From: Mucilaginibacter sp. PPCGB 2223
GTDB lineage: Bacteria > Bacteroidota > Bacteroidia > Sphingobacteriales > Sphingobacteriaceae
NCBI RefSeq assembly: GCF_001705515.1
Contig: NZ_MDJS01000001.1
Location: 1,116,001 to 1,180,000 of the forward strand
Direction: 5' to 3'
DNA length: 64,000 nucleotides
Position numbers and translations under genes: made by a program. Shown here piece after piece: positions 12,385 through 29,252 of this stretch (positions within the stretch are counted from its first letter, which is position 1; each line of letters starts with the position of its first letter). The notes beneath the pieces were generated by a model. The model was not told where the DNA came from. It was given only the letters and a program-made list of their open reading frames with translations, and searched no databases.

Positions 12385-13452
12385 ATGTCACAAGCAAAAA
12401 AAATATACTTAATTGATAGACTTTCGCAACTGGGCGACAAATTAAACAACCCCGACGAAGCCCTCAGGGCCCTGATTGAGACCGAACAACATTATAACGC
12501 ATGGTTCACCCCGCTGAATACGATGAACGCTGTGAAAGCCATTGGCGGTATGCTGAACCGGGAGGATCTTGCCGTGTGGTTAAGCCCTGAGCCTGGAGCC
12601 CGGAGCCCGGAGTCAGAAAAACCGGCTCAAGACTCAGGACTCCAGGCTCAGGGCTCAAAAAACGTAGGACTGATACTCGCCGGTAATATTCCATTAGTGG
12701 GTTTTCACGATGTGTTGTGCGTTTTAGTATCGAGGCACCACGCTATGATCAAGGCTTCGACCCAGGATGCAAGGTTGATTAAACATCTTTTGAACATGCT
12801 GGTGGAGATTGCGCCTGAGTTCGCGGGGAGCTTTAGCTTTGTGGAACGGCTGGCCAATTTTGACGCGGTGATAGCTACCGGCAGTAACAATACTTCGCGA
12901 TATTTTGAGTACTATTTCGGCAAAGTGCCGCACATTATCCGCAAAAACCGCAACAGTGTGACCGTACTTACCGGTATAGAAAGCACAGAACAACTGTTCT
13001 TACTGGGACATGATATCTTCGATTTTTTTGGCCTGGGATGCCGCAATGTATCGAAGCTGTGGGTACCTAAAGCCTACGATTTTGTCCCCTTCTTTGAAGC
13101 GATAGAGCCACATGCGGATATTATCAACCATCATAAATACCGCAATAATTACGATTACAACAAATCTATCTACCTGGTAAACGGCGACAAGCACCTGGAC
13201 AATGGTTTTTTACTCGTGAAGGAAGACGAGCGCCTGGCCTCGCCCCTGGCAGTATTATATTTTGAATATTATAACGACCTTGACGACGCACAAATACGCC
13301 TTGCCGGATTAAGTGAGCAGATACAATGTATTGTAAGTGAAACGGAGCTGCACCTTGATAACCAAGTAGTCGGCTTTGGCGAAAGCCAGAAACCTAAATT
13401 GTGGGACTATGCCGATGGTGTGGATACGATGGCGTTTTTGAATACGCTTTAG
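12385..13452 (+). CDS. Acyl-CoA reductase, LuxC-like, with a repeat-derived insertion
   Basis: 355 aa. NAD(P)-dependent reduction of an acyl-CoA or acyl donor to an aldehyde is the family reaction. Recognisable blocks: NVGLILAGNIPLVGFHDVLC, the IKASTQDARLIKHLL region, and VIATGSNNTSRYFEYYFGKVPHIIRKNRNSV. GLGCRNVSKLWVP holds the candidate catalytic Cys. Residues about 67-91 (SPEPGARSPESEKPAQDSG and onward) are unlike the rest. They are encoded by a perfect 16-bp inverted repeat and its interior (12583-12655), which reads through in frame. Divergent from the ferredoxin gene. Confidence 0.85.
   Translation: MSQAKKIYLIDRLSQLGDKLNNPDEALRALIETEQHYNAWFTPLNTMNAVKAIGGMLNREDLAVWLSPEPGARSPESEKPAQDSGLQAQGSKNVGLILAGNIPLVGFHDVLCVLVSRHHAMIKASTQDARLIKHLLNMLVEIAPEFAGSFSFVERLANFDAVIATGSNNTSRYFEYYFGKVPHIIRKNRNSVTVLTGIESTEQLFLLGHDIFDFFGLGCRNVSKLWVPKAYDFVPFFEAIEPHADIINHHKYRNNYDYNKSIYLVNGDKHLDNGFLLVKEDERLASPLAVLYFEYYNDLDDAQIRLAGLSEQIQCIVSETELHLDNQVVGFGESQKPKLWDYADGVDTMAFLNTL
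12583..12655. repeat. Palindromic repeat inside the acyl-CoA reductase gene
   Basis: AGCCCTGAGCCTGGAG (12583-12598) and its exact reverse complement (12640-12655) flank 41 bp that are themselves partly self-complementary. The words GAGCCCGGAG and GACTCAAGACTC-like also occur at 29169-29252. Confidence 0.85.
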
Positions 13453-24691: not shown

Positions 24692-25073
24692 AAAGCAAAC
24701 CGCTCTATCGCTGCCTTTCGGGGCGGAGGAAAGTCCGGGCAACACAGGGCATCCTGCTTCCTAACGGGAAGGCGCCGCCAGTTGGCGACGGAAAGTGCCA
24801 CAGAAAATATACCGCCGCGGTATTATGCCGGGGTAAGGTTGAAAACGCGAGGTAAGAGCTCACGGCCTTGTATGGTAACATGCATTGCGGTAAACCCCAG
24901 GAGTTGAAAAACCAAATAGGTTACAAAAGCGGAGCTGCCCGCTCCCTTCCGGTGCCCTGCACCGGTATTTGTAATGGGTAGGTTGTTAGAGCCTGACAGC
25001 AATGCCCGGCCCAGATAAATGATAGAGGTCCCGGTTTAACCGGGAAACAGAACCCGGCTTACAGGTTTGCTAC
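24692..25073 (+). ncRNA. rnpB: RNase P RNA (class A)
   Basis: Catalytic RNA that matures tRNA 5' ends. The diagnostic conserved blocks are in order: GGAGGAAAGTCCGGGC near 24725, CCACAGAAA near 24799, GGTAAGAGCTCACGG near 24850, GATAAATGATAGAGG near 25014 and ACAGAACCCGGCTTAC near 25047. P1 is closed by AGCAAACC (24694-24701) pairing with GGTTTGCT (25064-25071). The ends are set from that helix and are good to a few bases. Confidence 0.97.
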
Positions 25074-25082
25074 TGGAATTAA

Positions 25083-28151: not shown

Positions 28152-29171
28152 ATGAAATACAACTTTTTCGGTAATACAGGCTTATTGGTATCCGAACTCT
28201 GTTTCGGTACCATGACTTTCGGCGGTAAGGGCATGTGGGAAGCCATAGGCAAAATTCAACAGGCCGAAGTGAACGATCTGATGAAGACCGTGATCGATTC
28301 CGGTATCAACTTTATCGATACGGCCAACGTTTACTCTTACGGCGAATCGGAAACTTTGCTGGGACAATCCATCATCGATAATGGCATTAACCGGCACGAC
28401 CTGGTCATAGCAACCAAAGTTCGCGGAAAAATGAGCGAAAGCAAAAACAATATGGGCTTGTCGCGCTACCATATTTTCCAGTCGGTTGACGAAAGCCTGA
28501 AACGGTTACAGTTGGATCATATCGACATTTTGTATGTCCACGGCGTCGATCCGAAAACACCTGTTGAAGAAACCATGCGTGCTTTAAACGATATTGTACT
28601 GACAGGAAAAGTACGCTATATTTCTGTATGTAACTGGCCGGCATGGATGGTAATGAAGGCACAAGGTATTGCCGCTTTACACGGGTGGAACAAGTTTGAA
28701 GGCCTGCAATACTATTACAGCCTGGCCGGGCGCGATATCGAGCGCGAAGTATTACCCATGGCAGCCGATCAAAAACTGGCCGTAATGCCATGGAGCCCGC
28801 TGGCAGGCGGTTTCCTTTCGGGAAAATACACCCGTAATTCCACAAAAAGTGGTGCTAACCGCCGGGATAACTTTGATTTTCCGCCGGTAAATAAGGAAAA
28901 AGCCTACGATATCATTGATGTCATCGTCGAAACCGGCAAAAGCCACAATGTTTCGGCAGCGCAGATAGCTTTGGCCTGGGTACGCCAGCAACCGGGCATT
29001 ACCAGTACCATTATAGGTGCGAAGACGGCAGACCAATTGCAGGATAACATCAAATCCATTGAGATTACGCTTAGCGCAGACGAACTGAAACGCATCGACG
29101 AAGTAAGCGCATTATCAAAAGAATACCCCGGTTGGATGGTCGAAAGGCAATCGGCGGACAGGGAGTCGTGA
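28152..29171 (+). CDS. Aldo/keto reductase
   Basis: 339 aa NADPH-dependent oxidoreductase. MKYNFFGNTGLLVSELCFGT opening, FIDTANVYSYGESE with catalytic Asp and Tyr, VIATKVRG with catalytic Lys, HIDILYVHGVDP with catalytic His, and the C-terminal cofactor loop TSTIIGAKTADQLQDN. Most like the AKR11/YajO-type general reductases. Substrate unknown. Divergent from the AraC regulator. The stop TGA is the first three bases of a palindromic repeat. Confidence 0.9.
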   Translation: MKYNFFGNTGLLVSELCFGTMTFGGKGMWEAIGKIQQAEVNDLMKTVIDSGINFIDTANVYSYGESETLLGQSIIDNGINRHDLVIATKVRGKMSESKNNMGLSRYHIFQSVDESLKRLQLDHIDILYVHGVDPKTPVEETMRALNDIVLTGKVRYISVCNWPAWMVMKAQGIAALHGWNKFEGLQYYYSLAGRDIEREVLPMAADQKLAVMPWSPLAGGFLSGKYTRNSTKSGANRRDNFDFPPVNKEKAYDIIDVIVETGKSHNVSAAQIALAWVRQQPGITSTIIGAKTADQLQDNIKSIEITLSADELKRIDEVSALSKEYPGWMVERQSADRES

Positions 29172-29252
29172 GCCCGGAGCCTGAAGTCTTGAGCCAAAAG
29201 TATTTTAGTTTTTTGACTCAAGACTCTATACTAAGGACTTTAGACTGGAAAC
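29169..29252. repeat. Palindromic repeat between convergent genes, GAGCCCGGAGCC family
   Basis: AGTCTTGAGCCAAAA (29185-29199) and TTTTGACTCAAGACT (29211-29225) pair at 14 of 15 positions around an AT-rich loop. Flanking words GAGCCCGGAGCC and AGTCTAAAGTCC resemble the in-gene repeat at 12583. Contains the stop codons of both convergent genes; could act as a two-way terminator. Confidence 0.75.

Follow-up and report, generated by a model that had tools for sequence, protein, structure and literature searches.

An in-frame palindromic repeat in a LuxC-like reductase gene of Mucilaginibacter, probably a copy of a dispersed element

How does a palindromic repeat come to lie, in frame, inside the gene of an enzyme? 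The question is raised by a 64,000-nucleotide stretch of the Mucilaginibacter sp. PPCGB 2223 genome (the window, meaning the whole stretch analyzed), in which a LuxC-like acyl-CoA reductase gene contains such a repeat. The answer we consider fairly probable is that a dispersed, non-autonomous Mucilaginibacter element of REP/MITE-like type, which enters variable enzyme loops, has left an in-frame copy here.

The element and its host gene

The features of the window that bear on this question are the following:

12385-13452, plus strand: LuxC-like acyl-CoA reductase gene, host of the element; open frame of 355 codons
12583-12655, plus strand: whole element, codons 67-91; predicted disordered loop (from pLDDT and the orthologue alignment)
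12583-12614, plus strand: left arm, 32 nt, five AGYC words at 7-nt pitch
12615-12623, no strand: loop between the arms, 9 nt, A-rich (from the sequence)
12624-12655, minus strand: right arm, 32 nt, five GRCT words (AGYC words on the minus strand)
29164-29195, plus strand: left arm of an intergenic relative, five AGYC words
29215-29246, minus strand: right arm of this relative, five word positions, one word being TACT

The product of 12385-13452 matched the Pfam LuxC family in a profile search (E 2.6e-7), and the top PDB match of the predicted protein was LuxC (7xc6), in agreement with the assignment made in the initial annotation. The perfect 16-bp inverted repeat reported there is present as the outer part of the two arms (12583-12598 / 12640-12655). 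The segment of about 25 residues, said to keep the frame open between two conserved blocks, was likewise recovered: codons 67-91 sit between ..LNREDLAVWL and VGLILAGNIP and encode the hydrophilic 25-residue peptide SPEPGARSPESEKPAQDSGLQAQGS. Folded as DNA, the element has a z-score of -6.69, and none of 200 shuffles was equally stable. Three of its six frames are free of stops; the figure for 16 other elements, one of them excised a few bases late, is 25 of 96. Elsewhere in the window, positions 890-923 form a perfect, loopless 17-bp inverted repeat (AAAAGGCTGAACAGATA followed by its complement).

The structural model of the LuxC-like protein has a mean pLDDT of 90.9 and a pTM of 0.87, with block means of 50 and 54 at residues 71-90, and the segment is predicted from it to lie in a disordered, tolerated loop. 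This loop is 27 residues long; in the 27 orthologues without the insert it measures 11-16 residues (median 13). The net gain is thus only about 14 residues although 25 are encoded, which indicates that the element largely replaces the native loop. The earlier description of the repeat as inserted in frame is correct as to the frame, but replacement and lengthening of a variable loop is the better wording.

A dispersed family with a common word grammar

The words of the reductase repeat had been matched to an intergenic repeat at 29169-29252. This relative is real (E 3.8e-13 for the whole element under the covariance model described below), but its arms lie at 29164-29195 and 29215-29246, so that the start first given missed the first word. 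What the two window elements have in common is the grammar of an AGYC word every 7 nt and not a copied sequence. The family as a whole follows the form (AGYC NNN)x4 AGYC, loop, GRCT (NNN GRCT)x4, with three-base spacers, an AGTC arm standing opposite a GACT arm across an A/T-rich loop. The elements, here 69-105 bp long, have this grammar in common but no master sequence; their spacers tend toward Y-K-G, and the last base of the third spacer is G or T about equally.

The three-word pattern AGYCNNKAGYCNNKAGYC gave 57 + 37 = 94 matches in the genome (5.48 Mb, 8 contigs), and its reversed control gave 0. A covariance model built from ten elements gave 67 genome matches up to E 0.1, with most places matched on both strands; because the window copy was in the training set, its own E-value in that search follows by construction. 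In the loci read, exact runs of two words occurred 29 times, three words 16, four words 12, five words 28 and six words once, with none longer. Since runs end at five words, the unit is a five-word block and not an open-ended tandem array. The AGTC arm leads in 13/13 facing pairs.

Copying of the palindrome as one DNA unit was considered and rejected. Within 15 complete elements, 73 of 180 spacer positions formed Watson-Crick pairs (null mean 76.9, p 0.81), or 103 with G-U pairs included (null mean 103.1, p 0.54), when arms of different elements served as the null, and pair counts between arms showed no covariation above shuffles. The two arms of an element are not copies of each other beyond the shared grammar. 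In the window copy, 9 of 12 spacer positions are complementary between the arms; its palindrome is mostly one of grammar, and the exact spacer complementarity may be partly chance on top of it.

Rfam, searched at gathering scores, matched nothing in seven element loci and only RNase P in the window, where positions 24692-25077 are a bacterial RNase P class A RNA gene (RF00010); for these loci, membership in a known RNA family was rejected on this basis.

Location of copies in the genome

Fifty-two places of the family were collected in its own genome: similarity and pattern searches gave 41, including the two window elements, and the covariance model added 11. With a home-made gene caller, 46 of these lie outside open reading frames and 6 inside. 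A gene 3' end lies within 15 nt of 33 of the 46 extragenic places, a raw count taken without a null. The sixth ORF call, at ubiE (L157), most likely lies upstream of the true start; this copy and one at a PAD-type gene (L163) were not taken as genic because the element overlaps only the called start. Five places (about 10%) were taken as genic, the reductase and four others, so that the further in-frame copies anticipated in the initial annotation do exist:

LeuRS: a single half-unit with five words, GGTC among them, where the editing domain begins
TruA: CAT-spacer form
FolC: related form with GTTGA/ACTCACA words
Prophage terminase small subunit (TerS), L174:1314-2282: AGYC words in frame, C-terminal part

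The LeuRS and TruA frames stay open across the element. When the proteins were aligned with solved structures (LeuRS 1h3n and 2v0c; TruA 1dj0; FolC 1o5z and 1fgs), the repeat-coded parts corresponded to gaps, to the space between two aligned segments, or to loops that align weakly. The in-frame words of TerS indicate that the elements reach phage genes as well.

In 8 of the 51 own-genome sources scanned (L134:1525, L153:1422, L165:1954, L166:2065, L167:2068, L169:2053, L177:2025 and L178:2053), another dispersed repeat, GCGTTAGGGAT..AGCGGATACC..GAGCGGANAGCCCGGC, is found no more than about 110 nt from a heptad element. A search of seven of these eight loci against Rfam gave no match.

Carriers and non-carriers among LuxC-like orthologues

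Orthologue comparisons covered the LuxC-like gene, LeuRS and TruA. For the LuxC-like gene, 30 loci were aligned (its own and 29 others); ten genomes with LuxC matches had no locus and so fall outside the alignment, and of the 80 loci in the named collection 8 were aligned in one comparison and 42 in another. The closest named records come from an uncultured Mucilaginibacter, M. rivuli and a Mucilaginibacter MAG. The proposed check, absence of the segment from orthologues, bore out the annotation: 27 of the 29 other loci lack it, the two with a longer loop being L020 and L021. Nor was the same segment found in distant genera, as all seven aligned loci from other families (L042-L048) are without it. 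The named collection supplied a further carrier, L049; two more of its loci, L050 and L051, are by their coordinates the same genomes as L020 and L021.

In a 30-row tree computed with the insert removed, the four carriers (the window gene, L020, L021 and L049) form one clade (support 90/99). They lie on one side of a branch, and one gain is therefore enough. The inserts of the four carriers are not identical. Compared in six pairs, their left arms share 90 of 120 positions in the words and 24 of 72 in the spacers, at a third-codon-position identity of 41-54% in the right flank; the words themselves served to fix the register by eye, so this contrast is suggestive only. No clean full-length gain at an empty site and no target duplication was seen among the LuxC-like orthologues, where loops are replaced, not split. 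In L021 this loop contains a further palindrome, distinct from the first (KVSPSGGDLEGA).

A dialect conversion at this site, in which every species would fill in the spacers it currently uses, found no support among the matches listed. Among them, the genome of L049 (G047) has tandem AGA/GGA spacers only at the LuxC locus, and G007 has four pattern matches, one in the LuxC-like gene.

Recurrent repeats in LeuRS and TruA loops

A 7-nt periodicity or an inverted repeat was detected in 16/28 LeuRS loops and 21/28 TruA loops of Mucilaginibacter. A loop was counted when its lag-7 agreement reached 11 of 14 (p < 0.05 relative to codon shuffles) or when it held an inverted repeat of 8 nt or more. These figures are to be weighed against a background of 3/27 for the same loose criterion in insert-free LuxC loops (an 8-nt arm in L032 and L041, periodicity in L048), where the stretches were cut long by a regular expression. 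The partial loci L207 and L208 had been dropped beforehand from the LeuRS set of 28, and the paralogues L237 and L238 were left out for TruA.

At the strict cut of 12 of 14 at lag 7, the counts were 55 of 2285 windows touching LeuRS loops (8 genes) and 102 of 2822 touching TruA loops (14 genes); elsewhere in the same fragments the counts were 0 of 14132 and 0 of 18041. Strict periodicity at lags 5, 6, 8, 9 and 10 occurred nowhere in the LeuRS or TruA fragments, and these lag controls exclude a 7-nt bias across the whole genes for both enzymes.

Other repeats enter the same LeuRS loop. A palindrome of another kind, CCTCTCCAAAGGAGAGG, is present in the LeuRS loops of G005, G006, G008, G044 and G007 and dispersed in these genomes (43, 57, 22, 9 and 13 matches, control 0; two of the nine in G044 are the LeuRS site itself), with 0 matches in the PPCGB 2223 genome. 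Its dispersal there and absence here indicate that different dispersed repeats occupy the same LeuRS loop in different species. A palindrome with arms GCCTCACC..TCCTCTCCAAAGGAGAGGACTT was observed in frame in LeuRS (L196, L200, L201, L206) and dispersed in those Mucilaginibacter genomes.

Distribution across genomes

The pattern AGTCNNNAGTCNNNAGTC was matched in 27 of 31 Mucilaginibacter genomes, with strict-pattern counts from 0 to 183, and across the order in 68 of 121 genomes and 7 of 11 genera; one genus of the family (g19) reaches 359 matches per genome. Control matches are low in most genomes but not in all, G020 having 46, and spacers vary from genome to genome. Spread driven by a RAYT (Y1 transposase), as in REP systems, was considered through the transposase family PF01797, which is present in 29 of 31 genomes, with 4 matches in the own genome; its counts do not clearly track those of the element over the 31 genomes, G020 kept (rho 0.33, p 0.07). 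G023 has 28 pattern matches and no PF01797.

Two further kinds of heptad repeat were noted. Homogeneous single-heptad tandem arrays (AGTCATT, AGTCCAT, AGTCAAG and the AGTCAAAA type), unlike the mixed-spacer units, occur in G016 contig 17, G024 contig 7 and G042 contig 1. In some other genera of the family (G051, G072, G121) the reversed control CTGANNNCTGANNNCTGA is itself frequent, with up to 212 + 214 matches, which is compatible with heptamers of the TAACTGA type.

Origin of the genic copies

In the mechanism proposed here, the elements would be made of 32-nt half-units, each with five AGYC words at 7-nt pitch, usually two facing each other, and would mostly settle beside stop codons. An occasional element would land in, or overwrite, a variable exposed enzyme loop. 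Such a genic copy would survive only if the resulting frame is free of stops, the peptide it encodes then being hydrophilic and disordered; for the LuxC-like gene, a single gain before the four carrier genomes separated would suffice. We infer that copies move rather than grow in place and that extragenic copies have no essential role; the encoded peptide is probably neutral for the enzyme. Several results count against this reading: no clean full-length gain at an empty site or target duplication was seen, copies have no master sequence in common, PF01797 counts do not clearly follow element counts, homogeneous arrays in some genomes resemble slippage, and the loose criterion flags 3 of 27 insert-free LuxC loops.

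A local origin is unlikely by our estimate, although it accounts for part of the data. Slippage would grow 7-nt repeats in tolerant loops and template switching would write the inverted arm, under a shared mutational bias. TruA and LeuRS loops often hold just 2-4 heptads with little length gain, homogeneous tandem arrays resembling slippage products occur in several genomes, and template switching has been proposed, in the available part of the source, for the coding palindromes of Nematomorpha (PMC6649704). Yet one grammar is common to words at some 50 places and runs stop at five, adjacent spacers differ, unlike fresh slippage products, and full facing pairs lie within genes (the window, L049, L210, L223). 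The non-heptad dispersed palindromes in the same LeuRS loop also argue against growth in place.

Still less probable is a functional site, in which the words would be bound by a protein or form an RNA hairpin of 4-bp steps, for instance for protecting or ending transcripts, and genic copies would be retained as working sites. The excess of agreement at words over spacers in the LuxC left arms (90/120 against 24/72, flank third positions 41-54%, register by eye) would suit such a site, although this contrast is partly built in by anchoring on the words. The many copies that abut stop codons, the fixed size of five words and the fixed polarity would suit it as well. Against it stand the lack of covariation above shuffles and of an Rfam family, strict-pattern counts that range from 0 to 183 among genomes of the genus, and host genes that are unrelated, with no common regulation seen. 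A chance palindrome, or ordinary loop variation unrelated to the repeat, draws some comfort from the possibly fortuitous spacer complementarity of the window copy, but is already refuted for practical purposes by the 94 matches against 0 in the control, the fold z-score of -6.69 and the five words per arm.

The copy of a dispersed element thus remains the reading we prefer. A broader proposal can be put forward tentatively, as possible but rather doubtful: that the element class is set by word grammar and not by sequence, with 32-nt five-word units, free three-base spacers and facing arms that are independent draws. Words would be kept or rewritten while spacers randomize, even within a gene, across species that have diverged at half of their silent sites, and such units, together with other dispersed repeats, would repeatedly overwrite the same loops of universal enzymes.

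Comparison with known repeat systems

Protein-coding palindromes have been described for Rickettsia and Wolbachia, where palindromic elements lie in frame in genes (PMC10969869, in the portion accessible). The initial annotation had likened the reductase repeat to the Rickettsia elements (RPE) while noting words of a different type, and both points stand: the likeness is one of behavior (dispersed, in frame, in enzyme loops, at recurrent sites), and the words are five AGYC at 7-nt pitch as against the ATGAC motif. As with RPE-4/6/7 (eRPE-4) and the Wolbachia palindromic elements, the palindromes are dispersed and genic copies lie in frame in exposed parts of housekeeping enzymes. Copies occur inside and outside genes of one genome, the genic frames are open, the aligned LuxC-like orthologues of other lineages lack the segment, and the predicted structure of the LuxC-like protein (pLDDT 50-54 in the segment) points to an exposed or tolerated position.

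According to the sections available of PMC3767692, orthologues in R. japonica and relatives have, at shared sites exposed in the protein, insertions that belong to different RPE groups or have diverged, and the ATGAC motif stays frequent in RPE-4/6/7 inserts. RPE length is usually given as 100-150 bp, while Table 1 of that paper lists 68-192. The Mucilaginibacter elements differ in phylum, in length (69-105 bp), in their five AGYC words and non-complementary arm spacers, and in that about 10% of places are genic; the ATGAC motif of RPE-4/6/7 is a different word from AGYC. The element thus behaves like Rickettsia palindromic elements, the nearest known system in this respect, in another phylum, a likeness of behavior and not an identification. 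As its architecture is unlike that of RPE, it is filed under protein-coding palindromic repeats, here in Bacteroidota.

Other systems share single traits, as far as the accessible parts of the sources describe them. REP sequences and GTAG/CGTC-tagged palindromes are short and dispersed near gene ends (PMC12306157, PMC3733652); the present elements are similarly placed but longer and word-periodic, with some genic copies. TAACTGA heptamer repeats, found in Beggiatoaceae, Cyanobacteria and some Bacteroidetes, have the same 7-nt pitch, are mostly intergenic and patchy among species, and are exact direct repeats often upstream of start codons (PMC4679880). Here, in contrast, five words with free spacers form facing pairs, often after stop codons; the repeat is not an exact direct heptamer, since spacers vary from word to word and arms face each other. 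The BrickBuilt MITE of Porphyromonas gingivalis, also from Bacteroidota and with inverted ends to its repeat array, has a 23-nt unit and is described as always intergenic (PMC4596501). The window element has the inverted arms of a MITE, with the loop replaced rather than split. In Nematomorpha mitochondria, inverted repeats are translated inside conserved genes (PMC6649704), with long perfect arms and concerted evolution, whereas the arms here are independent draws of the word grammar. Among titles and abstracts, with most subscription papers outside reach, no description of such elements in Bacteroidota was found.

For Mucilaginibacter, these results carry a warning that orthologue loops can be repeat-derived. 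Because repeats recur in the LeuRS and TruA loops of many species, their tolerance, origin and mobility can be tested directly. If the word-grammar proposal is true, a genome's repeats get written into its proteins. Protein-coding palindromes in a Bacteroidota genus, here in LeuRS, a tRNA-modifying enzyme, a folate enzyme and a reductase, suggest that repeats from outside genes can repeatedly supply proteins with new loops.
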